The notes below the pieces were generated by a model. The model did no database searches. It saw only the letters and a program-made list of their open reading frames with translations, and was not told the DNA's origin. Shown here piece by piece: positions 946 to 25,171 of a DNA stretch of 64,000 nucleotides. The stretch's first letter is position 1; every line of letters begins with the position of its first letter. Both the position numbers and the translations under genes were made by a program. The stretch is from Psychrobacter sanguinis. GTDB lineage: Bacteria > Pseudomonadota > Gammaproteobacteria > Pseudomonadales > Moraxellaceae. Location of the stretch: the NCBI RefSeq assembly GCF_020736705.1, contig NZ_CP085990.1:3251064-3315063 (forward strand), in the 5' to 3' direction.

Positions 946-1536
946 TTAATATTTACTTTCATTGCCAGACTCAGGAACTAACTTAAAAGCTCGATAGTAG
1001 TTTTGCGAATCGATTATTCCAAAAGGATGCAAGTCTGTACCACTATACTCTCCAGGGTAAAATAAGATCATCGGTGTGCTTCCCATAACATCCTGCAATG
1101 CACTCAACAACTCATGACCTCTAACCAATGGCCAAGCACTTCCTAGTCCTGATAGAATAAGAAAATCCATTTCTTCAATATCATAGTTACTTGCTATGAA
1201 CTTCGCTACTTTCTCCTGACTTAAAGGTCCTGAAAGAGTTTTCTTAATGGCTTCAACACCTACCTTTTTCTCACGCTGGCATGCACGCTCAAATAGACCT
1301 CGTTCTTCTAACATCGTGACAAGGACTTGAAATATGTTTAAATTTTCAAATTTATACCCTCTACTCTGAAGCCTGTTGGTCATTAACTGTAAATGTTCGC
1401 GAACCAACAACTCATGCTTAGCAGGGTAGTCAAAAACCCAAAAGCCAATCTCATTGCCTAGCCCATCATTCTTTAAAAACTTTGGGCTTTCAATCCTATC
1501 AATGATTAAGTCTAAGCGACGCTGTAAAGCTTTCAT
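946..1536 (-). CDS. brxB: BREX protein BrxB (DUF1788)
   Basis: About 196 aa, the usual size of BrxB (DUF1788). Segments such as GFWVFDYPAKHELLVREHL and MEEMDFLILSGLGSAWPLVR-like text near the C-terminal half (IEEMDFLILSGLGSAWPLVR) match what I recall of this family. The biochemical role of BrxB in the BREX complex is not well defined. The frame is open to an ATG at 1545, but I prefer the ATG at 1534-1536 (protein start MKALQRRL) because it forms an ATGA overlap with the brxA stop, a standard translational-coupling arrangement. Lies between brxA and brxC on the same strand. Confidence 0.9.
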   Translation of the reverse strand: MKALQRRLDLIIDRIESPKFLKNDGLGNEIGFWVFDYPAKHELLVREHLQLMTNRLQSRGYKFENLNIFQVLVTMLEERGLFERACQREKKVGVEAIKKTLSGPLSQEKVAKFIASNYDIEEMDFLILSGLGSAWPLVRGHELLSALQDVMGSTPMILFYPGEYSGTDLHPFGIIDSQNYYRAFKLVPESGNESKY

Positions 1537-2156
1537 AGAGTACACTCCATAACTTCGATTAAATCTGCTCTATCTAAGCGTAGCAACCACTCCTTTACTT
1601 CTGGCATTAGATACACCGGATAAATCTCTCTTTTTCTAGCATCACTAAGATATCCACTAAGCACTAATATCTTGATAACATTAGTCCCCAGTTTTTTTAT
1701 GGTTGATTCAGAGTAATTATTCAGATCAGGATACTTCAGTGACTGTGTTTCATAGAAATCTTGCCAAGCAGTACTTGGTAGATTAGGCTTATAAGTTCTT
1801 TTAGCCTCCGCCAAGCTTAGCCTCATAAAATCCTCTACTATTGGAGAGTTAATCATAACTGCAACCAATAAGAGTTGTATGTAAGCTCGCTCCGTAGAAG
1901 TAACCAGTGCACTCATAAAGTCCTTACCTAGCCCTTCAATGCGCGTCCTAATTACACGAACGTAACGGCTAGAGGTTTTTACAGATTTTTTCTGTAGAAT
2001 GTTTTGGTCTATGACTAAGGCACGCCATTCATCTTCAGGCAACTGCTTTAGCAGAGTCTCTGCAATAATACGAGTCTCTGCTATTAACAGACTTCCTCCT
2101 ATTAAGTCGCCTACATAATCTCTAATGTCATGTATACCTCTACTTGCATCAATCAT
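1533..2156 (-). CDS. brxA: BREX protein BrxA (DUF1819)
   Basis: 207 aa, the length expected for BrxA (DUF1819), a small winged-helix-like DNA-binding protein that opens type 1 BREX operons. The C-terminal part (VIKILVLSGYLSDARKREI, then YPVYLMPEVKEWL) is typical of the family. It is the first gene of the operon; its stop overlaps the brxB start (ATGA at 1533-1536). A GAGGG sequence lies about 10 nt upstream of the ATG. Only 108 bp separate it from the end of umuC on the same strand, so the BREX promoter must lie in 2157-2264 or transcription must read through from umuDC. I could not identify a convincing -35/-10 pair. Confidence 0.92.
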   Translation of the reverse strand: MIDASRGIHDIRDYVGDLIGGSLLIAETRIIAETLLKQLPEDEWRALVIDQNILQKKSVKTSSRYVRVIRTRIEGLGKDFMSALVTSTERAYIQLLLVAVMINSPIVEDFMRLSLAEAKRTYKPNLPSTAWQDFYETQSLKYPDLNNYSESTIKKLGTNVIKILVLSGYLSDARKREIYPVYLMPEVKEWLLRLDRADLIEVMECTL

Positions 2157-5665: not shown

Positions 5666-6013
5666 CTACAGTAATTTTTCAATAACATCCTTCTGACTCA
5701 GGTTGATACGTTTGCAGTATAAGGCCTCTATTTCATTTAAAGCATCTCGAAGCTGGCGCTGTGATACTTGAATGTATTGTAATGTCACATCATCGCTAGA
5801 CTTTGCTTCACGATGGTTTAATAGTCTTTTTAGTACAGGGTAGTTAACGTTTAAACTATTAGCCACTGTGCCAAATGTGCGGCGTAAATCATGAGGTGTA
5901 ATATACAAGCCAGCCTTTTGAGAGATAGTCTTGTAACTACCGCTTAAGTCTTTGACATGATCATTACTTCTTTTCAAGTCACTTGGGAACACCCATTCTT
6001 CACCACTACTAAG
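5666..6013 (-). pseudogene. 3' fragment of a P4-type tyrosine integrase
   Basis: The reading frame is open from about 6013 down to 5666. It encodes LSSGEEWVFPSDLKRS, then HDLRRTFGT (H-x-x-R box), RLLNHRE and a Tyr in TLQYIQVSQ, i.e. the last third of the catalytic domain of a phage/island integrase. The N-terminal and central parts, including the first catalytic Arg, are absent: in frame there is a stop just upstream, and the DNA there belongs to the 3' end of the 1087-aa recombinase gene, which overlaps by ~20-40 bp. The ATG at 5992 is probably not a real start. The fragment looks like the target gene or the old end of an integrated element. Confidence 0.7.
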
Positions 6014-9000
6014 TCTTTTACGAAGCGTTTAAGCTCTTCAAACTCCTTTAATGGGAAAGATATATTGGCATGAGTCGACGTTATGCGCTGCGCCACTATA
6101 TGCAAGTACCAGTTATAATCTTTCCAACAATCTTCCCTTAGCTTTAAAAACCCTTTATACATCAGAGCCATTAATTCGTGTTCAATATACTCATAAATAC
6201 GCATTGGCAGCAATTTATGCTTATCTGTAACGAAGCGATAGCTCTCTTTTTGAAGCGTTGAGGAACTTATTTTCGATATAATCTTAGCTCTTCTATATAA
6301 CTCTTCAGCATCTTCTGGTTTAATTACTGCCTTTGACGATCCAGATAACATTGTCTGTTTTGCAACTCTGTCTTTAGCATTAGGACTTGGATTGAGATAA
6401 CTCTTCTCTATTGTAGTCAACAACGTTAATACTTGATGAATAGCATATCGTGTTAATAATGTATCAGAAATAGCCACTCCAAAAATCTCCGACTCTGTTT
6501 GATCATCAAGAGTCGATAGCATAATATTATGTTTAATCGGCTTTCGACGCTCTTGGGTAGGCTGAGTAACTTGTCTATATAGCCAAGGCACTGCAGACTT
6601 GATGGAAACATATCCATTCTCATCCGAGACAATTTTATTGTCTTTTAGAGCCCTACTTTTAATGTCTGTTATATTGATAAAAGCTCTTTTGGGCAGCTTA
6701 ATATCAGCATTAGCCAGCTCATAAGTTGCGATTAGAGCAGCTGCATGATAATAAAATTCAAAACTCCGGCTTGGAGTAAGATGTCCCACCACTCGTGCTA
6801 ATGCCTTCCATTTATCAGATCCATCGTGATTTACACCGTTTAGACCCGTCAAAGCTCTCTTAATATCTTTCTCCGAGTATCCTGTTAATGCAGTAACCAA
6901 TCTGGGACTAGCGCTGGTCAGAATAGCTAAGTTAGTAACTGCTGTATGCCGTAAACCATGAAAAGTAATCGCTCTACTCTCACCTACATAGCCCATCATC
7001 GTTCGTAAAAGCTCTAATGGCACGTCTGCATCTATTGGATGTTTTGATGCCATCGTGCTGAACAAATAAGTCCCAGAGCCTTGGCCTATTTTAGATAGTA
7101 CATAGCGACTGAATAAAGCCAACTCACGGGGTGTTAATAATGCATAGATAGGAACACGACGCTTACTACTCTGGTTTTTTAATTCACGGTAGGTATTAGA
7201 CCTCACAATGATAGAGGGCTCATTTAACTGTAACCCCTCTATATCTCTAATTTGAATACCAAGCAGCTCTTTTTTTCTAAAACCACAGCGGTAGGTCAAA
7301 ACTATTAAAAGCATCAGCATGTCCCTTTCTGTAGGCTCAGCCGAATAATGTATTTGTCTAAGAATGCTGTGATAACCTTGAACAGAAAGCCACTCTGCTC
7401 TTACTTTAACTTGCATTTTTGCCTGCTCAATCGTCACAGCCGGAAATCCATAAAACTTAACACCTACGTTATGTATACGTTGGAGCAGATTAGCGGGCTG
7501 ATCGATGGCTTTATTATCTCGAACAACGGATTTGAATTCTAACAAGCCGTCATAAAACTCAATGAAATCTTCCTCATCCCAGTTAGTTAAGTCTTCTTGG
7601 GTTAGAGACATAAAATAACACCACTCATTACCTACTTTACCAAGATATCCATTAATCGTTTTTAGCTGACGCTTCTGTGACTCCTTTAGTAACTCAATAA
7701 CCCAATGAACCAAAATTTTCTCATATAGCTCTCGATTAGTTATCAGCTGAGCACTAATCTCCTTTTTTATGCCATAAATAAACCAGTTTTTTAAAACAAT
7801 CGGTTCATTGATTAGTATGGATAACTTATTAAATGTCGCGTTACTTTTAATAAAAGTAGGATACCTGTACTTTTTAGAAAGATTTTCCTCTAGTTGCTCT
7901 TTTAAGAAGCTAACAATGTCTGATTTTTTATAATCTACTTTAGAGGGAGGCAGATGAGCCTTTGAGTTTTTTCTTTGTAAACTATAGCTATTACTATGAA
8001 GCGAGTAAGGGTTTGTGCAGTAGCTATACTTAGCACTCATAAAATTATTAAAACTATCTTCTAATAAGCCTACTGTCTTAATAGATCCTTGCAAGACACT
8101 CACTAATGCTTGATTCAATTTAACCCCTGGAAGAATTTCCCAATGATAACTGGCAGATTTTAAAAGTTGGCTAAGGGTGGGTACTGGTATGCTAAGTGGC
8201 TCGAGTAAGGTTTCAAGAAACTCTTTTAATAGCCTTTCAATATCATTTAATGAAAGGCAGTTGTTGAGCTTAACGGTCGGTAATTTATAATAGCGTACCA
8301 GCCAGCACTGGCTGATAGGGTCGATGATAATTTGATGGCTGTTGAATAGTTCTGAATTTAATTTTTGTCTTTTCAGTGAGTCTGATTCATATTCAATCCG
8401 TTCATTTCCATATTTGGCGCTGCCATACCTAATTGTAGTTTGTAGTGTGTAGTCTACGAATGGCTGTAACTGATTATTAAGACATTGAGTTAGCCATGGC
8501 AATAGCCAGTCTTTATCATTTATCCCTCCATAAACAATGCCTGAAAAAATAAGACTGGCTATTATCTCTTCTTCAGAATTTCTCTTTTTCTCTCCCCAAT
8601 AGTCGACTACTAATTGAATCGTTTCATGAATATATTTACTTTCAGCTACCCAACTATCTGCAATACTAAGAGGATTTTTTCTGCTTGGTTTATTAATTTG
8701 GGGTAAGGCATAATGAGAAGGCTTAAGAAGGTAGTTTTTATTTATAAAATCAATAAATTTCACATACCTATTAAAAGCAGTTTCAAAACGTCTGCCTTTA
8801 CTAAAATGTCTTTTTAGGTCATCAGCCACCATAGCCTGAAACTCTTCAAATGACTTCGGTGATAAGACCTGGCTCTTCTTATTTAAATCAGAAAGATAGG
8901 TTTTTACAACCCTATCCCATGGATGATAGCTCGTACAGGAGAAGCCCTGCGATACAAATGTAAATAATTGAGCACCTATAAAAAATTGTTCATAAAATCT

Positions 9001-9237
9001 TTTTATATACTTCTTAACAGACTTAAGACTTTTTTGTTTCGCTTCATAATCATCATATGAAGTTTGCTGCTGTCTCAAGCACTTATCCCACATGTTCTGT
9101 AGAGCCACATTGTGCTTATATTTTTCATAACGAGCAGTACTGACATGATGCTCATCAACCAGTAGCTGATATCCAGGGTCGCCAAATGGCTCGGCATAAC
9201 CATCAACTATTTTCGGGGGATATATACTCTTTAACAA
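5974..9237 (-). CDS. Very large tyrosine-recombinase-like protein (1087 aa)
   Basis: 1087 aa, about three times the usual integrase length. A tyrosine-recombinase catalytic core can be read in the second half: Arg in CGFRKKELLG (about residue 650), a basic KRRVPI segment, HGLRHTAVTNLA (H-x-x-R, about 760), GHLTPSR (about 815) and a candidate nucleophile in FEFYYHAA (about 827). The first ~600 residues and the last ~250 have no motif I recognise. It is the third gene of an overlapping operon (173 aa, 807 aa, 1087 aa): its ATG lies 35 nt inside the 807-aa gene. The last ~14 codons run into the integrase remnant, so its C-terminus may be chimeric. The function, site-specific integration or excision of a mobile island, is inferred from the motifs. 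Confidence 0.7.
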   Translation of the reverse strand: MLKSIYPPKIVDGYAEPFGDPGYQLLVDEHHVSTARYEKYKHNVALQNMWDKCLRQQQTSYDDYEAKQKSLKSVKKYIKRFYEQFFIGAQLFTFVSQGFSCTSYHPWDRVVKTYLSDLNKKSQVLSPKSFEEFQAMVADDLKRHFSKGRRFETAFNRYVKFIDFINKNYLLKPSHYALPQINKPSRKNPLSIADSWVAESKYIHETIQLVVDYWGEKKRNSEEEIIASLIFSGIVYGGINDKDWLLPWLTQCLNNQLQPFVDYTLQTTIRYGSAKYGNERIEYESDSLKRQKLNSELFNSHQIIIDPISQCWLVRYYKLPTVKLNNCLSLNDIERLLKEFLETLLEPLSIPVPTLSQLLKSASYHWEILPGVKLNQALVSVLQGSIKTVGLLEDSFNNFMSAKYSYCTNPYSLHSNSYSLQRKNSKAHLPPSKVDYKKSDIVSFLKEQLEENLSKKYRYPTFIKSNATFNKLSILINEPIVLKNWFIYGIKKEISAQLITNRELYEKILVHWVIELLKESQKRQLKTINGYLGKVGNEWCYFMSLTQEDLTNWDEEDFIEFYDGLLEFKSVVRDNKAIDQPANLLQRIHNVGVKFYGFPAVTIEQAKMQVKVRAEWLSVQGYHSILRQIHYSAEPTERDMLMLLIVLTYRCGFRKKELLGIQIRDIEGLQLNEPSIIVRSNTYRELKNQSSKRRVPIYALLTPRELALFSRYVLSKIGQGSGTYLFSTMASKHPIDADVPLELLRTMMGYVGESRAITFHGLRHTAVTNLAILTSASPRLVTALTGYSEKDIKRALTGLNGVNHDGSDKWKALARVVGHLTPSRSFEFYYHAAALIATYELANADIKLPKRAFINITDIKSRALKDNKIVSDENGYVSIKSAVPWLYRQVTQPTQERRKPIKHNIMLSTLDDQTESEIFGVAISDTLLTRYAIHQVLTLLTTIEKSYLNPSPNAKDRVAKQTMLSGSSKAVIKPEDAEELYRRAKIISKISSSTLQKESYRFVTDKHKLLPMRIYEYIEHELMALMYKGFLKLREDCWKDYNWYLHIVAQRITSTHANISFPLKEFEELKRFVKDLVVVKNGCSQVT

Positions 9238-11361
9238 AAGGATTTACCTCTATAATCTTGTAGATGATGTCACTAAAGTCCTGTAAACCAAGCTCTAAAG
9301 CTATTTGCTCAAAGTTTAACCCAACACTTTTAATTGCTGCTTTACTTACTGAGGAATATGAGTGCAGTGCTTGTTCCTCATTCTTCTCATGTCCTATGAC
9401 TGCATTAATTAAGGTCATACTTAGCCCTTGTCGCTCTAAGTTCACTCTGACGAAATGCCTTACCCCATATGGATCATGAAATGGTGTTAGATTTTGTACT
9501 ATCTTAGAAGCTTCACCTCTTGTAATCGGTGACAAATCATTCAACTCAGTATTTGAGAGGTTTAGAAAAGGGATATCTTGAGCCGTCTTAATCAAATAGA
9601 CAGCTGTACTAAATGTTTCAAGGAAAGGCTTATCAATAGCTACAAGGTAGGATCTATAAAGTTTAAATAGCTTTATAAGCGAACCGCAAAGTGGTATTAA
9701 CCTATGGTTCTGTGTCACTTTATTAGACTTATCGGCGACCTGATACCAGCCAACTTCAAGGTCTAGGCTTTTAGCATTAGGTAGTTTATTGTTAGGCCGA
9801 GTCCCTGTTAATATACAGAAGCCATACCATGTATAGATACTGAATCGATTAAAAAGCTGTTTATGGCACTGGCTCTCTATAACCCAACTCTTGAGCCGTT
9901 GAAAAAACAATCTGACACTTTCTGTCTTTAATGCAAAGCCCGAGCCTGTCAGAAAGTCTTCTGAAGAACTGTCGATATAAGAAAGATCAAAAAGGTTATG
10001 TATATTTAGGAGTTGCAATGCTTTTTTATAGTGCCCTATTAGCTCCTGATGGGAATGGCTACTATAAAATATAGCGGGTGCTTGACTTGCATCAATCCGA
10101 CAAAGAATATCAGCTATATGAGAGTTACTACCTTCAACATATCGTCTCAAAAGAAAATGTAGCGCTGACTCAATTCTAGAAATGGTTAAATACACTATCC
10201 CGAGACTTTCTTTTATACTCTTTACATAGGCTTTAATGTCTTTTATTTTAATTTTGCTTTTAGATGCTTCTATGGCTGTTTTTAGCAAACTAACAGGCAG
10301 AGGTATTTTAATTAGGTCCGTGCTATTTAAATTATTGTGACTGTATTCTTCTATCGTAGTTACCCCAAGTTTCGACTGTAGATAACCTTTACGTTTACCT
10401 ATATAGAATAACCCTGATTGTTCAATAAAACCCTCTTCAATCAAGCTTGGCACTGGACACGCTGTGATTAATGAAAGGAATAAGGGTGCCGCCATCAGAC
10501 TTGTATTTTTATCCTCACTCTTCAAGTCATATGCCAACTGGTTAAATACAAGTTTGCAAGATGCAGGTGAAAGCATATTTATATCTGAAAGAAACTCATG
10601 CTCTCGCAAACTCATGTATTGCTGTTTAACGCTAAAATCTACATCATCTATGCCAAAACTTTGTAATTTACGTTTTTGGAATTGAGGATTCAACCAGTAC
10701 GTATTAATTCTAGATGGCATGACATCAACAGCTTCTTCAAGAGTCGAATACTCTGTAGTAGTATCCTGTAAATAGATAGTATCTACTACTGCCCCATCCT
10801 TTCCATTATTTGAGCTGTCTATATTATTTGACAAAGAAGCAGTAGGTGCTTTTGTGACATTATCTGAGAGTTTGGGTGGTCTGATTCTTTTAGTTCGCCC
10901 CTCTCCTTTATCTTTATCAGTGCCACTACTTTTAGATTTCGTCTTTGGCTTTGATGGCTTTTTTTGGCTTTTACGATGTGGGTAATACGCAGCTTCTATG
11001 TATTTTTTAACTTCGTTTATTTGATTGAGCTTTTTATCTCTAAATTTTTTTGTTGCTTCAGTTTCAACTATTCCTCTTAATCTGTCTGCTTCAACTTGAG
11101 TTTTGTTTCTGTTCAACTTATCCAGCATTAAAGAAAAAGTGTCTAAAATAAAAGAAGATGTTACTCCTTCAGCCTTAGTTAGGATTGGCAATTCTTTCCA
11201 AATCCACTGGTAGTTTTGTGTTTGATAAAAGTAGGCTGTTTTAAAGCGCTTAATCAGCCGCTCAGACTCTTTATCTTTTCCATGCGCTTTTAATAACAAG
11301 CTATGATAAAAGGTTTGACCCCTGCCGTCAAATCCGTACACCTAAACTTGGGAGATTTTAA

Positions 11362-12180
11362 TTACGCAGCCTGACGGTAGAAATCAACCCAAACCTGTCT
11401 TGGCGATCTCATACCTAAATCTTGCTGAATCCTCGTTTGGTTGTAATCTAACTCAATATATTTGATGATACTGTTAATAGCCTCAAATCGAGTTCTATAA
11501 TTATGATGATATACCAACTCATTCTTTAAGACGCCCCAGAAGCTCTCTATTGGTGCATTGTCGAAACAATTACCTTTCGCACTCATTGAACCTTTAAAAC
11601 CGTGTTTACTGATGATTGTGCGATAATCATCGCTACAGTACTGACTACCTCTATCTGAATGCACAATAAGACCTTGGCTAGGTTGTTTATCCTTGATCGC
11701 TTTATTTAAGGCCTTACAGACTAAATCAGCCTTCATACGTTTATCGATAGCGTAGCCAACCAATTCTTTGGTATACAAGTCTTTAACACCTGCCAAATAA
11801 AGCCAACCCTCATCTGTCCAAATATAGGTGATATCACTGACCCATGCACAATTAGGACGATTGACGCCAAATTGTTGTTTAAGCAAATTAGGATAGATTC
11901 GCTTGTTATGGCCTGAGTCCGTTGTCACTTTAAAGCGCTTATGACGTCTACATTTGATGTCATGTTCTTCCTTGATACTACGTACCATATACTTGCTGAC
12001 ATCGTGCCCTTGTTCACTTAAGTGTGCGTGTAGACGCTGATAACCATATCGCTCTTTAGTCTCACTGTGAGCAGCTTTAACAAGTAGCTCACAGTGATTA
12101 CGATGTATTTGCTGAGTACTGATATCACGCTTCGTCCAGTCATAGTAGCTTGATGGTTTGATATCAAGGATTTTACACAT
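11362..12180 (-). CDS. IS3 element A OrfB transposase (copy 1)
   Basis: 272-aa catalytic part with the rve/DDE core: Asp in WVSDITYIW, Asp in VHSDRGSQYCSD, and Glu in NAPIESFWGVLKNE. It is expected to be translated mainly as an OrfAB fusion by -1 frameshift; the OrfB frame is open upstream to the slippery site. The internal ATG (MCKILDIK) is only the first Met of the open frame. Confidence 0.9.
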   Translation of the reverse strand: MCKILDIKPSSYYDWTKRDISTQQIHRNHCELLVKAAHSETKERYGYQRLHAHLSEQGHDVSKYMVRSIKEEHDIKCRRHKRFKVTTDSGHNKRIYPNLLKQQFGVNRPNCAWVSDITYIWTDEGWLYLAGVKDLYTKELVGYAIDKRMKADLVCKALNKAIKDKQPSQGLIVHSDRGSQYCSDDYRTIISKHGFKGSMSAKGNCFDNAPIESFWGVLKNELVYHHNYRTRFEAINSIIKYIELDYNQTRIQQDLGMRSPRQVWVDFYRQAA

Positions 12181-12227
12181 GCTGGTAATGCTAAATTCAT
12201 ATTTGTGATGGTCAATAAAGGCGTACC

Positions 12228-12527
12228 TTACTGACCGTTCCTTGCAAAGTACGCCGTGGCCTTTTTTAGTATCTCTCGCTCTTCTTGTGCAATCTTTAAC
12301 TCTCGCTTTAAACGCTTATTCTCTTCAATAACGGCCATTAATTCAGAATCAAACTGTTTAGTACCTTTGAGCTTACCTTGATTAGCTTTCCGTTGCCAAT
12401 TAGCTAGCGTTTGCATTGGTAGCCCTAACTGCCTTGCTGTGGCACTGACATTGCCACCATTATTTTCTATTGCTTTGACCGCTTCTGCTTTAAATTCTTC
12501 ACTATATCTCTTAACTTTCTTAGTCAT
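12228..12527 (-). CDS. IS3 element A OrfA (copy 1)
   Basis: 99-aa DNA-binding N-terminal part of the transposase: KRYSEEFKAEAVKAIE, an HTH with NVSATARQLGLPMQTLANW, and a C-terminal leucine-zipper-like stretch (ENKRLKRELKIAQEEREILKK, positions 69-89). An A_AAA_AAG slippery heptamer near codon 88 allows -1 frameshifting into OrfB. Confidence 0.9.
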   Translation of the reverse strand: MTKKVKRYSEEFKAEAVKAIENNGGNVSATARQLGLPMQTLANWQRKANQGKLKGTKQFDSELMAVIEENKRLKRELKIAQEEREILKKATAYFARNGQ

Positions 12528-12903
12528 GGTAAACTCCTATTTGTCTTCTTTAGTTTACCAAGCTTTTGTCTACGGTTTTTTCAGCATACATCAGTTATTG
12601 CTACCCAGAACGCTTTATGCATGTCATTTTTGGCAGCATCTATAAGTATTGCGATAAGCTGGTGCTTAAACGACTTACCTTTAAACCACTTTCGTGATAT
12701 TTCATATTTGTACGACTTAATGCTTGCTAACTGATCTACCTCTTCGCCTTTAAAAGTCTCTTCAGTAGTTAAACTAAGGTGCAATTTGACTATCAACTCA
12801 TTTAAAGCTGCACATAATTCTGTGTCTAACACTGATGTGGCACACTCCAAAGCAATCTTTAAATCAGATAAATCGATAATTACCATGTCTTCAACTGAAT
12901 CTG

Positions 12904-13425
12904 TCATAGCATACGACCTCGTGAACGATCGAAAGTAGACTGTGATATGCCAACCCGCTCTAGATAATCAGCAATTGTGAACTTGTTTTTTCCTAAAATA
13001 CTGTTCCACTCATCTTGCTTTAACTGCCTTTTTAGTACCTTATATATCTCAACATGACATAGGTTTGATCTCTTTCTAGAAATTGCCTGTAAAACGCTCA
13101 ATGTTTCAATCACTAAGTTAACTTTTAGATTTTTAATCTTACTCCAACTAATAATCTCTAACTTACTACCCAGAAGCTTTTGAGAAAGGGATTCTTTTTT
13201 TAATAGCACTAGTAGACCAAAGTTATTAGCTAACCAGTAGGATCCTTTAACTTTCTGGTGAAGAGCAATGGGTTGTTGTATTAGATATTGCAATAGGTGG
13301 CAATGCTTGTCGCGGGTAATCTCATTGACCAAATGATATTGATATAGTTTATATAGCTCATTTATAGATTCATCTATCAAAATATTTTGCTTCGCCAGCC
13401 AGGACAATCTAACCATTTTTGTCAC
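12904..13425 (-). CDS. Small first gene of the recombinase operon (173 aa, unknown)
   Basis: I do not recognise this protein. It opens the 173/807/1087-aa operon, and its stop overlaps the next ATG (ATGA at 12904-12907). The start is GTG at 13425 with an AAAGGA-type ribosome site about 8 nt upstream; an ATG four codons in (13416) is an alternative. The sequence is basic and mainly helical in appearance. The C-terminal FTIADYLERVGISQSTFDRSRG looks like a helix-turn-helix. By position it could be a small accessory DNA-binding factor, as TnpC is to the two recombinases of Tn554; that is analogy, not homology. Confidence 0.7.
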   Translation of the reverse strand: MTKMVRLSWLAKQNILIDESINELYKLYQYHLVNEITRDKHCHLLQYLIQQPIALHQKVKGSYWLANNFGLLVLLKKESLSQKLLGSKLEIISWSKIKNLKVNLVIETLSVLQAISRKRSNLCHVEIYKVLKRQLKQDEWNSILGKNKFTIADYLERVGISQSTFDRSRGRML

Positions 13426-15989: not shown

Positions 15990-16164
15990 TTAGAGTGTTA
16001 TTAGATCGAGGTTATGTCTCGCGTCTGCATGCCCTTGACCAGCGGCTTCTATATACCATTTAGCAGCCTTTTCAAGATCTGTAATACCTGCAACACCTGT
16101 ATGATACATTACCCCCATATTAAATTGAGCATCAACATAACCCTGATTGGCAGACTTCAAATAC
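15990..16164 (-). pseudogene. 3' remnant of a Sel1-repeat protein
   Basis: 57 codons ending in a TAA at 15990. The text SANQGYVDAQFNMGVMYHTG followed by DLEKAAKWYIEAAGQGHADA is one and a half Sel1-like repeats (tetratricopeptide-related solenoid). The upstream part of the gene should continue past 16164 but IS3-A copy 2 starts there, and a different gene is found on its other side, so the 5' part has been lost. Open-frame extension into the IS is spurious. Confidence 0.75.
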
Positions 16165-16230: not shown

Positions 16231-16530
16231 ATGACTAAGAAAGTTAAGAGATATAGTGAAGAATTTAAAGCAGAAGCGGTCAAAGCAATAGAAAATAATG
16301 GTGGCAATGTCAGTGCCACAGCAAGGCAGTTAGGGCTACCAATGCAAACGCTAGCTAATTGGCAACGGAAAGCTAATCAAGGTAAGCTCAAAGGTACTAA
16401 ACAGTTTGATTCTGAATTAATGGCCGTTATTGAAGAGAATAAGCGTTTAAAGCGAGAGTTAAAGATTGCACAAGAAGAGCGAGAGATACTAAAAAAGGCC
16501 ACGGCGTACTTTGCAAGGAACGGTCAGTAA
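16231..16530 (+). CDS. IS3 element A OrfA (copy 2)
   Basis: 99 aa, identical to OrfA of copy 1. The slippery heptamer A_AAA_AAG is at 16491-16497; a -1 shift there enters the OrfB frame, which is open from that point. Confidence 0.9.
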   Translation: MTKKVKRYSEEFKAEAVKAIENNGGNVSATARQLGLPMQTLANWQRKANQGKLKGTKQFDSELMAVIEENKRLKRELKIAQEEREILKKATAYFARNGQ

Positions 16531-16577
16531 GGTACGCCTTTATTGACCATCACAAATATGAATTTAGCATTACCAGC

Positions 16578-17396
16578 ATGTGTAAAATCCTTGATATCAA
16601 ACCATCAAGCTACTATGACTGGACGAAGCGTGATATCAGTACTCAGCAAATACATCGTAATCACTGTGAGCTACTTGTTAAAGCTGCTCACAGTGAGACT
16701 AAAGAGCGATATGGTTATCAGCGTCTACACGCACACTTAAGTGAACAAGGGCACGATGTCAGCAAGTATATGGTACGTAGTATCAAGGAAGAACATGACA
16801 TCAAATGTAGACGTCATAAGCGCTTTAAAGTGACAACGGACTCAGGCCATAACAAGCGAATCTATCCTAATTTGCTTAAACAACAATTTGGCGTCAATCG
16901 TCCTAATTGTGCATGGGTCAGTGATATCACCTATATTTGGACAGATGAGGGTTGGCTTTATTTGGCAGGTGTTAAAGACTTGTATACCAAAGAATTGGTT
17001 GGCTACGCTATCGATAAACGTATGAAGGCTGATTTAGTCTGTAAGGCCTTAAATAAAGCGATCAAGGATAAACAACCTAGCCAAGGTCTTATTGTGCATT
17101 CAGATAGAGGTAGTCAGTACTGTAGCGATGATTATCGCACAATCATCAGTAAACACGGTTTTAAAGGTTCAATGAGTGCGAAAGGTAATTGTTTCGACAA
17201 TGCACCAATAGAGAGCTTCTGGGGCGTCTTAAAGAATGAGTTGGTATATCATCATAATTATAGAACTCGATTTGAGGCTATTAACAGTATCATCAAATAT
17301 ATTGAGTTAGATTACAACCAAACGAGGATTCAGCAAGATTTAGGTATGAGATCGCCAAGACAGGTTTGGGTTGATTTCTACCGTCAGGCTGCGTAA
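16578..17396 (+). CDS. IS3 element A OrfB transposase (copy 2)
   Basis: 272 aa from the first internal Met, identical to OrfB of copy 1, with an intact DDE core (SDITYIW, HSDRGSQY, IESFWGVLKNE). Probably active as a source of both copies. The weak open frame at 16543-16740 in another phase is a shadow. Confidence 0.9.
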   Translation: MCKILDIKPSSYYDWTKRDISTQQIHRNHCELLVKAAHSETKERYGYQRLHAHLSEQGHDVSKYMVRSIKEEHDIKCRRHKRFKVTTDSGHNKRIYPNLLKQQFGVNRPNCAWVSDITYIWTDEGWLYLAGVKDLYTKELVGYAIDKRMKADLVCKALNKAIKDKQPSQGLIVHSDRGSQYCSDDYRTIISKHGFKGSMSAKGNCFDNAPIESFWGVLKNELVYHHNYRTRFEAINSIIKYIELDYNQTRIQQDLGMRSPRQVWVDFYRQAA

Positions 17397-17442
17397 TTAA
17401 AATCTCCCAAGTTTAGGTGTACGGATTTGACGGCAGGGGTCA

Positions 17443-18476
17443 GTTTCAGCTATCACGGATTAGATATAGATTTCATTCAGCCTATAACTTCAGAAAGTAT
17501 TTATATTATTACTAAAAATGAAATTTTAGAAACTATTATACCTGCCTCCTCTCCTGTTCCTAATCCTTCAGCTTTTGAAACCACTCTAGTTGTTGCAAAT
17601 AGTAAGCAGTCCAGTATCGAATTGCCAATTTGTGTAGGTAACAAAAACAAGCTGCTAGGTATCATCACAATTGACTCAGATAATGAATATTTCAATATAG
17701 GTGATGAAGTTCATGTTACGGCCTCCATCAACCAAGAAAAACTTTTAAGTATCACAGCTTCAGTTGCAGGTAAAACCGTTGCATCAAGCATCCTAAATCC
17801 ATTATCAAATGAAGAGCTTACTGAAACTGAGTCTAGATTATTGAAAGCCAAACAAGCCTTTAATCAAGACTTATTAGACTATAAGGGACGACCAAGAATA
17901 CATGTAGTAAAAGCATATGCGGATGCCGCTTTAGATGCCGGTGCGTATGAACTTGCTGCAGAGCTATACCAAGGCATTGAAAGAATGGATAGTACCTATG
18001 ATTATTCAACGACTATATGCTATGCATATGCTAGAGCTGGACGGCCTAATTTAGCTAATGAGTGGGCTAATTTAGCTTATAAACGCAAGCCTAATGCTGT
18101 TAATGCATATAACTTATCCTGTAGATATTCTGGTCCTGAGCAAGAGAAATATCTTAGATTAGCGCTTGAACATGATCCTTCATACGATAGTGCTTTGATT
18201 GTATTGGGTCGCATTCTGCATAGCAGAGGAGATAAAGAAGGTCGTGAATTACTTGAGAAAGCTAAAAATAATATAATGTCTGGCTATGACTTTGGATATA
18301 TTGACTATGATGAAGCTGAAGACCTTCTAAAAATAAGTCGTATACTGAATGATGATGATACAAAACGTAAAGCTGAAAAGTTGATTGAAGAAATTAAAAG
18401 TAAGGAAAAATCATCTGTATACTCTGATAATAATCTTGTACAAACAAAAAATAATAATAACTTACTTAATAAATAG
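17443..18476 (+). pseudogene. Hsp70-like protein with C-terminal TPR region, 5' end lost
   Basis: The open frame starts inside the IS end, so the first residues (MTAGV) are not native. The remaining ~344 residues begin at the ATPase-to-substrate-domain junction. There is a beta-rich segment resembling an Hsp70 substrate-binding domain (LLGIITIDSDNEYFNIGDEV, then VTASINQEKLLSITASVAGK, about residues 70-125). It is followed by helical TPR-like repeats (about 150-280: AYADAALDAGAYELAAELY, YAYARAGRPNLANEWANLAY) and a Lys/Asn-rich tail. The N-terminal nucleotide-binding domain is absent. It precedes the UvrD-like gene by 8 nt with GAGG between them, so it was the first surviving gene of an operon. 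The Hsp70 assignment is moderate; TPR is good. Confidence 0.6.
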
Positions 18477-19226
18477 AGGTTCCTATGGCTTGGTGGATAC
18501 CGTTTAATAAACTCAGAGATAGACAGACACGCTATATTAATGAAATGCTTAAGTCAGTTAGGGAAGGTAAAAAGACCGTTTACTGGGTTCAAGGCTTTGC
18601 GGGTACTGGTAAGACGACTGTCCTAGCTAACTTAGCAGTTAAACTAAGGGCAGATCGAAAGTCTTTGGGAGTTCGTGAGACTTATTGCTTTATTACGTAT
18701 ACTCATGCCATGAAAGAACTGATAAAGAAGACATTTGTTGCAGAGAATAAAGGCTTTATAAACATTCAAACACATACGAAATTTTTAAGGGACCAAAAGA
18801 AGTATGACTTTGTATTTCTCGATGAGGTACAAGACATTAGTCCTAATGATTTAAACAGAATAAAAGCTCTTTCGAACTTCTTATTTATAGCTGGTGACTG
18901 CGAACAAAGTATTTATCAGGGAAGCGCTGAAGAAACTCAAATCGATGAAATCTTTAAACCCAATAAGCTTGTTTTTACAGAGATTCTAAGACTAACAAAA
19001 TCCATGAGAGACTTAGCCAAAAAAATACTTCCTGATAGCAGAATTAATGAAGGCTCTCCAGAAAATACAAATGGCGATAATACACCCTTAATTGTTGAGT
19101 TTGACAGTGAGGCATCTGAATTTAGCTGGATTGCTGATAATGCGGTTCAGCGCGCAGCGCCAGGCAGCCCGAGTTGCATATTATTCACACACCATTCAGA
19201 TATTAAAAAATTCTTTTATCAAATAT

Positions 19227-20416
19227 CTCTGCACACGACAAAAAAACAAAAAAGTCTGTTAAAGCAAAGGCATAATAGTAATTTTCAAGACGAATCAGAC
19301 CATGCCAAACTTTAACAGACTTAGTGAAACTTTAACCCAAAACCTGAGTATGAACAAGGCAAGAATCACATGTTTGAGCCTAATGATAATAGCCCTGATT
19401 ACTGCTCAAAGCAGTAATCTTAAAAAAATAGCAAGACACCTTCCTAAGGGTGGTAAAACCGACAGTCACTATCGCAGACTACAGCGATTTTTTGCCGAAG
19501 CGAGGACAGACTACGATCAACTGGCTTTAATGATATATCGACTATTTAGGCTAGGCAAAGTCACCTTAACCATTGACCGTACCAACTGGAAATGGGGTAA
19601 AAGTAACCTCAACATCTTTATGCTAGGGGTGGTATATAAAGGGATAGCCATCCCCTTATACTGGCAAATGCTAGATAAGCGAGGTAATACAAACCATCTT
19701 GAACGCTGTGAACTTATTGAGCGGTTTATCAAACAATTTGGCAAAGATAACCTTGAGATGATAGTAGCGGACAGAGAGTTTGTTGGCGAAAAATGGTTTA
19801 ACTGGCTCACCAATAATCACATACCCTTTGCCATACGGATTAAGAAGAACAGTAAAGTTAAGAATCATCATGGCAAGTTGGTACAGATTAAAGAATTATT
19901 TCGCCATGTTAGCCATCAAGAAACATATCGACATGGGCGAATACTGACTGTCGATGGTTGTTTGGTTCGAGTATTTGCCAAGCGTGATAAAGACTATGAT
20001 TTAGTGATTGTGGCAACCAATCAACTAGAAACAGTGGATGCGATGACAAGCTATGCTAAGCGTTGGGAAATTGAGACTTTATTTGCTTGTCTAAAGGGGC
20101 GTGGCTTTAATCTTGAAGATACCCACTTAACCCATCTTGATCGGGTCAGTAAATTAGTCGCAGTGAACGCCTTAGCATTTTGTTGGGCTTATCATGTCGG
20201 TATTTATAAAGACAAAGATAAGCCGTTAAAACGCAAGTTAAAGTCAAACGCTCGACCTCAAGCCAGTTTGTTTGCGCTTGGCCTGGATTTATTGATCGAA
20301 GGTCTTCGCTTGGTGTTTTTTAACAATGATAAGACTGTATTTCGACAGTTAGTTAGCTTTTTAACCCCTAAACCTATGAAAATCGGGTGGGGATGATTTT
20401 TTTGTCGTGTGCAGAG
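19227..20416 (+). mobile_element. IS4-family element (1190 bp)
   Basis: Terminal inverted repeats CTCTGCACACGACAAAAA... and the mirror ...TTTTTGTCGTGTGCAGAG. Flanked by a perfect 9-bp duplication ATCAAATAT at 19218-19226 and 20417-20425. Complete and probably recent, since the interrupted gene is otherwise intact. Confidence 0.95.
19302..20396 (+). CDS. IS4-family transposase
   Basis: 364 aa DDE transposase. Asp in TIDRTNWKWG, Asp in IVADREFVG, and the IS4 signature Y-(2)-R-(3)-E-(6)-K as YAKRWEIETLFACLKGRG. Intact frame. Related to, but clearly different in sequence from, the IS4 copies at 56223-57406 and 62428-64000. Confidence 0.93.
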   Translation: MPNFNRLSETLTQNLSMNKARITCLSLMIIALITAQSSNLKKIARHLPKGGKTDSHYRRLQRFFAEARTDYDQLALMIYRLFRLGKVTLTIDRTNWKWGKSNLNIFMLGVVYKGIAIPLYWQMLDKRGNTNHLERCELIERFIKQFGKDNLEMIVADREFVGEKWFNWLTNNHIPFAIRIKKNSKVKNHHGKLVQIKELFRHVSHQETYRHGRILTVDGCLVRVFAKRDKDYDLVIVATNQLETVDAMTSYAKRWEIETLFACLKGRGFNLEDTHLTHLDRVSKLVAVNALAFCWAYHVGIYKDKDKPLKRKLKSNARPQASLFALGLDLLIEGLRLVFFNNDKTVFRQLVSFLTPKPMKIGWG

Positions 20417-20905
20417 ATCAAATATATAAATCTCAAAATATATCTCCAGCTGGACCTTTTGAAGACGTTAATCTAAATGACCATAATACTAAACTTGACT
20501 ATAGGCAAGTTAATGGCTATTTCAAACGTCACAAGCTACCTTATAGGTATTTAGGTAATAGCTTTGGCGAATTGGACGAAAGTGATAAGCAGCCTATTGT
20601 TTTTATCATGACCTACCATAGCTCAAAAGGGTTAGATTTCGATACAGTTTACGTTCCTCAATTGACTATTAACAAGCAGATAGTACTTCCACACGTTTTA
20701 GAAAAATCTCCAGGCTTAGATCAAAGGCTTTTATTTGTTGCTGTAACTCGGAGTCGTAAGGACCTATTCTTAACCTATAGTGGGAAAGCATCTCATAAAT
20801 ACATCACCGATTTACCAGCTGGTAGCTATGAGAAAATTGAAAACCCACATTTAGTAGATGATGATGAAGAAGACGATTGGGATATATTCTAATGGAAAAT
20901 AATAA

Positions 20906-21694
20906 GGTGGTGGTTCAAAAAGTAGGCTGAAAAAAAACAGGCTGAGAAATTGATAAAATAGTGAAATGCAAATCACACTATACATCAAATGCCCAGCCTG
21001 TCTAAGTGACAGTATAAAGAAAAATGGCTTCAAAAGCTATGGTAAACAAAACTATAAATGCAAAGACTGCAAACGGCAGTTTATTGGCGACCATGCCTTA
21101 ACGTACCAAGGCTGTCACTCCCAAAAAGATAGCAAAATACGCCATCTTATGGTTCGAGGCAGTGGCATAAAAGACATCGCTTGCGTTGAGAGAATCAGCA
21201 AAGGCAAAGTACTGGCCACCCTAAAAAAGTGTCACTACCAAATAACCCCCAAGCAAAGGCAATACGACTGTCTTGAAGTCGATGAGCTTTGGACATTCGT
21301 AGGCAAGAAGACCAACAAACAATGGCTAATTTATGCCTATCACCGTGACACAGGTGAAATTGTTGCCTATGTGTGGGGAAAACGAGACCTTAACACTGTC
21401 AAAAAGCTTAAAGCTAAACTGCAAGCCTTAGGCGTAAGTTGTGCTAGAATCGCTAGTGATACCTGGGATAGCTTTGTTACCGGTTTTAAGGGCTTTACCC
21501 AAGTCATTGGCAAGTTTTTCACGGTCGGTATTGAAGGTAATAATTGCACTATCAGACATCGAGTAAGGCGAGCATTTAGGCGAAGTTGTAACTTTTCTAA
21601 AAAGCTGGAAAATCACTTTAAAGCCTTTGATTTAGCTTTCTTTTACATCAATCATGGATATGTCTAATGTCAGCCTACTTTTTGAACCACCACC
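20906..21694 (+). mobile_element. IS1-family element (789 bp)
   Basis: Ends GGTGGTGGTTCAAAAAGTAG... and ...CTACTTTTTGAACCACCACC, flanked by an 8-bp duplication AATAATAA (20898-20905 and 21695-21702). Inserted 14 bases into the 680-aa gene, which would abolish its normal start. Confidence 0.93.
20966..21667 (+). CDS. IS1-family transposase, single-frame type
   Basis: 233 aa. N-terminal zinc-finger-like CPACLSDSIKKNG...CKDCKRQF and HTH; the catalytic part resembles InsB: VDELWTFVGKKTNKQWLIYAY, ASDTWDSF, and RHRVRRAFRRSCNFSKKLENH. Classical IS1 needs a frameshift between insA and insB; here both halves are in one frame, as in some IS1-family branches. Intact. Confidence 0.92.
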   Translation: MQITLYIKCPACLSDSIKKNGFKSYGKQNYKCKDCKRQFIGDHALTYQGCHSQKDSKIRHLMVRGSGIKDIACVERISKGKVLATLKKCHYQITPKQRQYDCLEVDELWTFVGKKTNKQWLIYAYHRDTGEIVAYVWGKRDLNTVKKLKAKLQALGVSCARIASDTWDSFVTGFKGFTQVIGKFFTVGIEGNNCTIRHRVRRAFRRSCNFSKKLENHFKAFDLAFFYINHGYV

Positions 21695-23629
21695 AATAAT
21701 AATTCTATAGCAAACAGCAACTGTATACTTATTACCCACAAGGAATGGTTGGATTGGCTAGCATTCGGCTACTTGCGTACTTCACCATCACGCATTACTT
21801 ATTTTGATGGATCTCAATCAAGTTTCGAACTACTATTAAGCTACAGTACGATTAGTATCGGCTCAATTACAGAAGAAGATGGCTTTTTGATAGCTAGCTT
21901 GGTTGATGACTATAACGACTCAGACCTCCATATATCGCGAAATTCTTCTACATTGTATATATCCATACAAGCTGTTCAAACTTTTTATTCATTGACACAT
22001 CACGCACTTAATCTGCTAGAAAATGAGATTTTACAGTCTCACTCTATTGTTAGATATGACCCAAGCATTGAGCGTCTCTGGACTGAGTGGGTAGGTTATC
22101 AAATTAAACTAAGAGATCATGATAAAGGAAATAAACTTCTTGAAATACTCGATTATCCTAAGTTTTTAGAAACCCCAGATCTTATTAATAATAATTTATT
22201 TAATGATATATTAATAAGCTATGGTCATACACAGCTACCTGAGAAGCTAAAGAGCTTTCATAACAAAACATTATATCCTTGGTTATTCATTAACTATAAA
22301 TTAAGTAAAAATAATAAAAATATATTCAACAATTGTAGGGCTTTACGGAAAGAAATTAAGGAGTTAGATGACGCCTACTCAAATGGTGCAGAATCTTATA
22401 TTCAAACTGATAATAGCCCTCTGACTCATCAGCCATTTTTAGTATCTGAAAAAGTGCTCCTCGATAATATAGTTAATTCCGAAAGCCACTTTTTAGCATC
22501 ATCATTCTTAGCTCATTATTACAACCTTTCGGATAATAATTATTTAGAAAGTAACCTAGAGTTCTTGAAGAAAGACTTAGCGTTTTTAGACACCCTATAT
22601 TCAAAAACTGACTTTTCTAAACTTATTATATATTATTTAGGTAGAAGATTAGATGAAGGCTATTTAAACTATCTATATAACGCTAAAAATATAAGTCAAC
22701 TGCAATCTAATGTGTTTGATATTAATTTCTTCTCTGAATTAGAGAGAACTGAACTACCCGTAAGTAACTTTAATGAAGAAGATATCCAAAATATCGTAAA
22801 TGACGTCAAAGCTAAGGCTGAAGAAATAGAGCGTATTTATAATGAAAGTCTAAATAAGCCACAAGAGCAACAAAGTGTAAAGAATACTCCTGAACAAAAC
22901 ACAACTAATGATAAAGAAAAAATCACTAAGCCTCATTCAGGCGAAGATACATCTAATGGTCTAAAAGCAGAAAATGTATCGACAGGTGATTCCGAAGGTC
23001 AGAATACTAAGAATAATACTAACCCTAATCAGCTCGAGTCAGAAACTGCGGTCTCATCTACCGACGAAAACTCTATAAGCGGCTCTCAAGGTGATGCTCA
23101 ACCAGCCCAACAAGCGGCTAATGATTTGACTGATAGTGATACTCTAATGAATCAACCTACTCCCCAAGATGATAAAGAGAATACCGATGCTCTGGACTCG
23201 GAAAACCAGGATATCGCTAGGCAGGTAGATGAATCTAGTGATGATTACCCAAACAATAAAGAAGAAGCTAATCATAACAAGCCCAGTAGCTCTAATAAGG
23301 ATGAGCTAAATAAAATAGGGGGTGCAAACCAGATAGGTTTGTCACCAACGAAATCTCCGGATAATCAAGTTGAAGGAGTGGGAAATAAAAGTGTTAATAC
23401 CAACGTTAATAATACAGAGCAAGAAAATCAGGACCTTACTTCTAGTGAACAAATGTCATTCCTCGATAATTTTATAGAGGTTGATAGAAGTCAGTTAATT
23501 CAAGATGCCAAAAATGTAATATCGGAATTAGCATCAGACGAGAAGACAAGTGGTAGCGCTTTTAAAAAGCACTTTTTAAGAAAACGACCTGAATATATTA
23601 AGGTACTCCCCAATGTCTAGACCAAATTA

Positions 23630-24529
23630 TCATAAAATTAAGATAGAGTTGGGTTGATAAAACGATTTATTATCCGAACTATTGTTAGCCAGATAAACCT
23701 GTGCAGGAGTATGGTAATCGAGCGACTGATGTAAACGCTCATGATTGTAAAACTCGAAATACTCTTTCAAACCTGCTCTTGCCTGACTGACTGTCTCAAA
23801 CTGTCGCAAATACACGCATTCATACTTCACTGACCGCCAAAGCCTTTCCACAAAGATATTATCCAGTGCCCTACCGCGACCATCCATACTGATAGCAATA
23901 CCCTGCTCAATGAGCGGTCTGGTAAATCTTGGGCTGGTAAACTGAGAGCCTTGATCTGTATTAAAAATCTCACAGCGTAACCCATTGTGCAATAAGCTGC
24001 TCACCGTATCCACGCAGAAATCCGCCTCAAGCGTGGTAGATAGCGACCAGTCTAGAACATAACGACTGTACCAATCTATCACCGCCATCAAATATACGAA
24101 GCCCTTGGCTAGGCGAATATAGGTGATATCAGTACTCCACACTTGATTACAACGGCTAATCGGTACATGCCTAAGCAAGTACGGGTAAACTTGATGCTCA
24201 GAGTTAGGCTTACTCGTGTTAGGATGCTGATAAATAGCGTCTAGCCCCATTTGCCGTAGTAAGCGCCTAACTCGCTTTTCTCCCACTTGATAGCCTAGTT
24301 GCCTCAAATACGCTGTCATGCGTTTAACCCCATAAAATGGGGTCTTGGTGTACTGCTGGTCAAGCAGGTTCATCAGGGTAATATCAAGCTCGCTGATGGG
24401 CTTTGGCTGATAGTACAGACTTGAGCGGTTGATACTGAGTAATTCACATTGCTTACGAACACTAAAATCCTTGTTGTCAGGTTCTAGCAGTTGTTTACGA
24501 GTGCTCAGGGTAGCTGTAAGGACTTTTTT
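23630..24529 (-). CDS. IS3 element B OrfB transposase (copy 2, frame entered by -1 shift)
   Basis: Identical to copy 1 OrfB: DDE core in TDITYIR, NTDQGSQF and VERLWRSVKYE. First in-frame Met at 24373; the frame is open up to the slippery site. Confidence 0.88.
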   Translation of the reverse strand, partial: KKVLTATLSTRKQLLEPDNKDFSVRKQCELLSINRSSLYYQPKPISELDITLMNLLDQQYTKTPFYGVKRMTAYLRQLGYQVGEKRVRRLLRQMGLDAIYQHPNTSKPNSEHQVYPYLLRHVPISRCNQVWSTDITYIRLAKGFVYLMAVIDWYSRYVLDWSLSTTLEADFCVDTVSSLLHNGLRCEIFNTDQGSQFTSPRFTRPLIEQGIAISMDGRGRALDNIFVERLWRSVKYECVYLRQFETVSQARAGLKEYFEFYNHERLHQSLDYHTPAQVYLANNSSDNKSFYQPNSILIL

Positions 24530-24795
24530 TTAAGCCAGTCTCTTTCGCTTATAACTTGCCCTAGCTGCCTATGTAGTTCATCGATAATAGCTTGCTGGGC
24601 TTGTTCGTTGGCTTGCTGTTTGGTATTGAATGCAGTAGGGATAACTGCCAAAGCCTGCTTTTTCCAGTTGCTGATTTGGGTTGCATGAACCCCATATTCT
24701 GTGGTTAACTCGTTGAGGGTCTTGTGTTCTTTGATGGCTTCAACGGCGACTTTGCTTTTAAATTCAGCATTGTGACGCTTACGTACTTTTGTCAT
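24505..24795 (-). CDS. IS3 element B OrfA (copy 2)
   Basis: 96 aa, identical to copy 1 OrfA, with the same A8G slippery run for -1 frameshifting close to its end. Confidence 0.9.
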   Translation of the reverse strand: MTKVRKRHNAEFKSKVAVEAIKEHKTLNELTTEYGVHATQISNWKKQALAVIPTAFNTKQQANEQAQQAIIDELHRQLGQVISERDWLKKKSLQLP

Positions 24796-25171
24796 TAGAT
24801 AGACCTCTTTTTCTAAAGGTTATTCTATCTTATTTGCTACAATTTTTTGGTCTAGTTTTCCGGGAGTATTATATATCGAGATATTCTCAGACTGCAAAAA
24901 ACTTAAAGATTTTTATGCATCCTTCGCTGAACAAGCTGGCATTGATGAAATGAAAGACTATACTCGCTTCACTCAATTTGAGAAGGAAATTTTATCTATA
25001 CAGATTTAATAGACATAGCGTAAGCATCCGACCAACCCCTATTGCGGTGGCACCCAGCGATGAGGCAACAACTCATCCAGATCCTCTTGAGTAGGCAGGC
25101 GTCTTAGCACGTCTGTCAAATAAGCAGACACATCCAAGCCATTTAAGCGAGCTGACTGAATGATTGACATA

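Follow-up and report, generated by a model that had tools for sequence, protein, structure and literature searches.

Here, we describe a three-gene operon whose remnants occupy positions 17443-25009 of a 64,000-nucleotide stretch of the Psychrobacter sanguinis genome (contig NZ_CP085990.1, forward-strand positions 3,251,064 to 3,315,063; hereafter the window). In order, the genes encode an Hsp70 with tetratricopeptide repeats (TPR), a small UvrD-type helicase and a large protein without a family match. Our reading, to which we give a probability of roughly 55%, is that the locus is the remnant, wrecked by insertion sequences (IS), of a mobile and rare three-gene candidate immune system. This system would be chaperone-gated and RNA-targeting and would follow a logic like that of the CoCoNuT systems while being distinct from them. 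The domain content of the proteins, the coupling of their genes, their linkage across genomes and their patchy spread can be read from the sequences compared here. We did not find a description of the trio in the open literature; most subscription papers lay outside the search.

A broken operon and its relatives

The pieces of the trio at 17443-25009 all read as open frames, interrupted by IS4-like, IS1-like and IS3-like elements. The sequence-only reading of this stretch had proposed that the three genes are tightly coupled once the elements are removed, and both junctions are indeed exact: GAGG and an 8-nt gap lie between the Hsp70 and helicase genes, and the helicase and third genes share a TAATG overlap, which is also found in P. 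piscatorii.

The Hsp70 fragment (17443..18476, + strand) is the C-terminal half of the protein, with a peptide-binding beta domain and TPR-like helices replacing the lid, and matches the 802-aa Hsp70 of P. piscatorii at residues 457-792 with 71% identity. Nothing of the ATPase domain, which in the intact relative comprises residues 1-456, is left in the window; it was lost at the junction with an IS3-like element (16231..17442, +) whose left end is approximate and is taken as the first transposase frame. A search of the genome gave three Hsp70 matches, all of them outside the window. The first helicase piece (18485..19226, +) carries the Walker A and DEVQD motifs, matches PF00580 and AAA_19, and shares 87% identity with the 402-aa relative over residues 1-247. 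The second piece (20417..20892, +) carries UvrD_C (PF13361, E 5e-14) and is 80% identical to residues 246-402. Between them stands the IS4-like element (19227..20416, +), flanked by a 9-bp target duplication.

The third gene starts at 20892..20905 (+), overlapping the helicase stop, and is interrupted by the IS1-like element (20906..21694, +), which has an 8-bp target duplication; the family names of this and the IS4-like element were assigned by eye and by the sequence-only reading. The conserved N-terminus of the third protein picks up directly after the IS1-like element, and the main piece (21695..23606, +) aligns with the third protein of P. piscatorii over residues 1-386 of the latter at 49% identity. 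A second IS3-like element (23607..24870, −; ends approximate, set by eye) follows, for which no target duplication was found. The C-terminal piece (24872..25009, +) is open to the TAA at 25007-25009 and by eye resembles the P. piscatorii C-terminus. Judged from its sequence, the window copy is dead: it is missing the ATPase half of Hsp70, and both the helicase gene and the third gene are interrupted, so that the system cannot function in this genome. The earlier suggestion of a degraded chaperone-helicase remnant is thus borne out, and intact trios exist in relatives. As a side observation, the part of the IS4-like element that closes the helicase frame is repeated at no fewer than 19 other places in the genome, which fits IS expansion.

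Complete trios were found in P. piscatorii (Hsp70 802 aa, helicase 402 aa, third protein 600 aa), in P. immobilis (801, 402 and 757 aa), on the Antarctobacter plasmid pSMS3-3 (959, 387 and 456 aa) and on the Persicobacter plasmid pPP6 (785, 388 and 596 aa). The two plasmid records annotate them just as 'Hsp70 family protein', 'AAA family ATPase' and 'hypothetical protein'. The P. raelei trio is IS-damaged: its Hsp70 match starts at residue 132, where the break adjoins what looks like the same IS3 end as in the window, and its third gene is interrupted. In a genome from another genus of the same family (G850), an 8.3-kb contig breaks off at the Hsp70 and helicase genes, which leaves the third gene out of view. 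Gene order is identical in all relatives, whose hosts span three bacterial classes (Gammaproteobacteria, Alphaproteobacteria and Bacteroidota being among the hosts) and two phyla. The trio therefore stays together, and finding its genes only apart, which would have spoken against the sequence-only reading, was not the outcome.

Scans of plasmids returned relatives in the Antarctobacter and Persicobacter records only; five other plasmid matches from one search cover the end of the helicase-piece frame that runs into the IS and are not relatives of the trio. A phage collection gave no match at E 1e-8. Among viral contigs, the helicase scan returned at least 66 distant helicases (best E 8e-8) and the Hsp70 scan returned two loci, with frames that by eye have a HEPN-type N-terminus. 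One contig of the viral collection (L096, 7470-10349) encodes a 959-aa Hsp70 relative with such an N-terminus, beside what appear by eye to be phage or gene-transfer-agent tail genes.

The trio is scarce in the genomes surveyed, all of which belong to the host's own phylum. With the window's own genome counted, a helicase profile found its target in 4/100 genomes of the genus and 5/249 of the family, and in the window's own genome alone among 398 genomes of the phylum and likewise among 369 of the class. The phylum and class samples overlap, and 4 and 5 candidates were scored per genome, so that weak relatives could be missed. This rare and patchy spread marks the trio as an accessory gene set, and the notion of housekeeping genes, which the sequence-only reading had held against itself, does not fit it.

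The protein database holds 533 relatives of the helicase, 224 of the Hsp70 C-terminal half and 41 of the third protein; the four of these 41 that carry an organism name are all from Psychrobacter. Our analyses of the Hsp70 and helicase relatives use the best 120 listed for each. The database prints the longest contig of each protein, without gene context, and in the 120 x 120 comparison 18 Hsp70-helicase pairs have exactly equal longest contigs, against 0.66 expected per offset as derived from near misses. One further contig match, between P0055 and P0137, is probably due to chance (0.25 expected) and was set aside. For 22 Hsp70-helicase pairs, of which four were read straight from the DNA, the two distance matrices have a correlation of 0.958 (Mantel p 0.0001). 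This value is 0.950 for the 18 contig-matched pairs alone and 0.943 for the 13 that bear a HEPN domain. The Hsp70 and the helicase travel together.

The chaperone, the HEPN domain of many relatives and the partner proteins

An AlphaFold2 model of the Hsp70 C-terminal half (pLDDT 86) has as its fold matches the DnaK substrate-binding domain and TPR proteins, and the TPR is also picked up by a sequence profile. The DnaK-like peptide-binding beta domain is present in the Hsp70 family tested. Five nucleotide-binding motifs (phosphate 1, lysine, connect, phosphate 2 and adenosine) are intact in 17 of 17 aligned rows when compared with the genome's own DnaK, and the first ATP motif is shown by 110 of the 120 listed relatives. 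As far as sequence motifs tell, the Hsp70 of the relatives is not degenerate. The family shares the ATPase motifs and the peptide-binding beta domain with DnaK/Hsp70 chaperones but differs from them in having a TPR array for a lid, a HEPN domain in many relatives and an operon with a helicase. In PADLOC, the P. piscatorii Hsp70 gives a weak match to one candidate family (E 4e-5).

Half of the listed Hsp70 relatives (60/120) have at least 150 residues before the first ATP motif. The HEPN motif R[NH]xx[AS]H stands at the expected place in 59 of these 60, against a shuffle rate of 0.00075. The lone exception, P0269, has an N-terminal NERD nuclease-related domain instead of HEPN, which suggests effector swapping. 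Nine Hsp70s were scanned with Pfam. The Swt1-like HEPN family PF18731 was over the cut-off in P0186, P0199, P0213 and P0233, which were picked because the database already listed a HEPN domain for them; it was below the cut-off in Antarctobacter and P0225 and absent in P0256, Persicobacter and P0269. The alignment of the Antarctobacter Hsp70 with P0199 takes in the N-terminus and covers 99% of the query (43% identity). Most members of the HEPN superfamily are RNases, and the bacterial Swt1-like versions include active ones, according to the part of PMC3710099 on which we draw. The Hsp70 fusions resemble Swt1-like HEPN proteins in the type of HEPN domain and in the active-site motif (R-x4-6-H). 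The same part of that paper does not list a fusion to Hsp70 for the Swt1 family and rates the motif there as partly conserved.

The helicase is of the UvrD/PcrA/Rep type and has about 380-400 residues; as this is about half the length of PcrA, it probably is without the large inserted subdomains. PF00580 (the UvrD N-core) and PF13361 (the C-core) are found in the window pieces and in the intact relative. A profile search for solved relatives ranked PcrA best, with UvrD, Rep and GajB among the first.

The third protein has no match in Pfam, NCBIfam or PADLOC (window piece; for PADLOC also the P. piscatorii protein). It resembles the Antarctobacter third protein by hhalign at E 1e-4, though with a probability of 55%, and by a tblastn match (E 2e-5) that extends over about 61 residues. 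When P. piscatorii is compared with P. immobilis, identity is 95% in the ATPase domain and 91% in the helicase, and falls to 61% in the TPR part and 63% in the third protein (50% in its core). In three contig-matched pairs, the Hsp70 C-terminal half is 95% identical to that of P. piscatorii, and the third protein is just 52, 68 and 51% identical. On these comparisons, the third protein appears as the variable, fast-evolving part of the trio. For the P. piscatorii-P. immobilis pair, all measured parts have a dN/dS below 1 (0.07-0.53, with the helicase at 0.08 and the ATPase domain at 0.09), and dS is elevated in the TPR part and in the core of the third protein. For the P. raelei helicase dS is saturated, which precludes a dN/dS value.

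Defence genes and a recombinase module nearby

The sequence-only reading had asked whether the trio lies near BREX, restriction or integrase genes. In the case of the Psychrobacter copies, known defence genes stand within about 15 kb of all four (4/4). In the window, PADLOC identifies BrxB and BrxA (946..2156, −; E 8e-68 and 2e-82) of a BREX system that continues to the left, with PglZ at G000:C1:3233668-3234198. Zorya type I lies near the P. piscatorii trio and Zorya type II near the P. immobilis trio; Zorya type I is also present beside the latter, as seen from matching sequence and not from the defence-model scan. Beside the damaged P. raelei trio (L089, 1840-12867) are a DarG-like gene, an IS-broken Zorya type II and a frame that resembles the candidate family PDC-S69 and whose last residues match DarT weakly. 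Separately, a P. piscatorii stretch that comes no closer to the trio than about 7 kb (L085, 1921-7035) has PADLOC matches to PDC-M72A, PDC-S02 and a type II restriction endonuclease.

To the left of the trio, the window holds a recombinase module (5974..13425, −) that encodes four proteins, of 1087 (bearing a Phage_integrase domain), 712, 108 and 173 aa; an IS3 copy lies among their genes. Three of these proteins (1087, 712 and 173 aa) have homologues next to the P. piscatorii trio, where the module includes proteins of 791 and 1149 aa. In the window, in P. piscatorii and in P. immobilis alike, 4-7 kb separate the module from the helicase. The 791-aa/712-aa recombinase type occurs in 35/100 genomes of the genus, 32 of which are without the helicase, and the 712-aa type may mark a defence-carrying mobile element. 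In a comparison with the Gamma-Mobile-Trio, just one of ten module or neighbour proteins had an NCBIfam match, to XerA and below the cut-off. The 1087- and 712-aa tyrosine-recombinase-like proteins are unusually large.

Some other features of the surroundings were noted. A Sel1-like (TPR-like repeat) open frame, recognised by eye at 15990-16160 (−), is truncated by the IS3 element that adjoins the Hsp70 fragment; a Sel1-repeat protein likewise follows the Persicobacter trio, a parallel that is perhaps due to chance. On the other side of the trio, 29079-53108 (−) is one open frame of 8009 aa; frames recur at regular intervals on the opposite strand, as for a giant repetitive surface protein. 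Next to it, the frame at 53704-55083 matches CshA, Big_9 and Calx-beta.

A candidate immune system and its alternatives

In the mechanism that we propose, the Hsp70 cycle would read the presence of a viral or unfolded client protein, acting as sensor or switch. The TPR array would hold the third protein, which would bear a variable recognition surface, and the helicase would work on the single-stranded nucleic acid of the invader. Activation would then let the HEPN domain cut RNA, stopping the infection. In the HEPN-less Psychrobacter form, the effector would probably reside in the third protein or be supplied from elsewhere. A narrower proposal holds that the Hsp70, with TPRs for a lid, senses viral client proteins via its own ATP cycle and directly unleashes the fused HEPN domain, with the mini-helicase and a diversifying partner giving specificity; we regard this chaperone-gated immune RNase as tentative, a possibility that we would not bet on. 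There is a precedent for phage sensing that depends on Hsp40/Hsp70, in that the defence protein bNACHT25 needs the host chaperone DnaJ, as described in the portion of PMC12169576 relevant here. The likeness drawn here is one of function, and bNACHT25 uses a host chaperone whereas the chaperone of the trio would be encoded in the operon.

Several points weigh against an immune role. We infer that role, and likewise client sensing, the docking of the third protein on the TPR array and the substrate of the helicase. The HEPN domain is absent from the Psychrobacter Hsp70s that were read: P. piscatorii has neither an extension nor a HEPN match, and the N-terminus is lost in the window. The proximity of defence genes to the Psychrobacter copies is a raw count, uncorrected for how near such genes a random gene would lie. 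Around the two plasmid copies, the annotated genes contain toxin-antitoxin genes but no other named defence system. Host kinship accounts for part of the Hsp70-helicase distance correlation. The likeness of the third protein to that of Antarctobacter is confined to the N-terminus, and its similarity to the Persicobacter third protein is not significant. Finally, dN/dS values below 1 give no evidence of positive selection behind the rapid divergence of the third protein; the raised dS suggests recombination, and allele exchange is as likely an explanation as selection.

The alternative that we consider strongest, although unlikely, is a stress or DNA-repair module in which a dedicated chaperone remodels a UvrD-type helicase complex, accessory and not used against phages. 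The strong purifying selection on the helicase and the ATPase domain would suit such a module, as would the fact that PcrA and UvrD, which act in repair, are the nearest solved helicases by sequence; the rarity and patchiness of the trio, its position near defence genes and the fusion of HEPN in many relatives argue the other way. We think it less likely again that the trio serves the movement or persistence of the recombinase module beside it or of a host plasmid. In favour of this role in maintenance or transfer, the 791-aa recombinase accompanies the helicase at the distance given above in 3/3 genus genomes that have both, a descriptive count as the loci were noticed first; two copies are plasmid-borne, and on pSMS3-3 a tyrosine recombinase is annotated about 10 kb ahead of the trio. 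Yet the recombinase is far more widespread in the genus than the helicase (35 genomes against 4), P. raelei has the trio but no recombinase module in three stretches around it nor genome-wide at E 1e-40, and the plasmid stretches searched do not contain the module either.

A closer comparison is with the CoCoNuTs, which the trio would most resemble in its working. In the portion of PMC11090510 that we draw on, published CoCoNuTs combine a CnuD Hsp70-like protein, a CnuH SF1 helicase and HEPN effectors and form superoperons with BREX; the Type III systems there likewise bring an Hsp70-like nucleotide-binding and substrate-binding protein, an SF1 helicase and a HEPN RNase together in one system, sometimes with BREX. 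In the trio, by contrast, HEPN is fused to Hsp70 itself and the repeats are TPR, not the HEAT-like repeats of CoCoNuTs. CoCoNuTs are built around an McrB GTPase, and we consider it very improbable that the trio is a divergent CoCoNuT branch that lost McrBC, as it fails on two CoCoNuT features that were tested. McrB was not found in the three operon genes, among the annotated plasmid neighbours (for which the gene table is incomplete) or in the scanned P. piscatorii neighbour frames, and the helicase is PcrA/UvrD-like, not UPF1-like as CnuH is. Additionally, the ATPase motifs of the Hsp70 are intact, whereas the same part of PMC11090510 describes degenerate Walker A-like motifs in CnuD homologs. 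The helicase also matches GajB models and GajB structures, as in Gabija, but its partner here is an Hsp70 and the GajA partner was not seen, the third protein having no PADLOC match. The sequence-only reading, too, could not match the operon to a named system.

If the trio is the candidate immune system that we favour, its value lies in the family and not in the dead copy of the window, and the present analysis supplies a parts list for operons that have so far been sparsely annotated in two plasmid records. Should the chaperone-gated immune RNase prove true, it would be an immune sensor triggered by the folding state of proteins. It would add a family in which Hsp70 itself is the immune switch, fused to an RNase, instead of serving as the helper of another sensor, and whether bacteria sense infection by their protein folding load would become directly testable.

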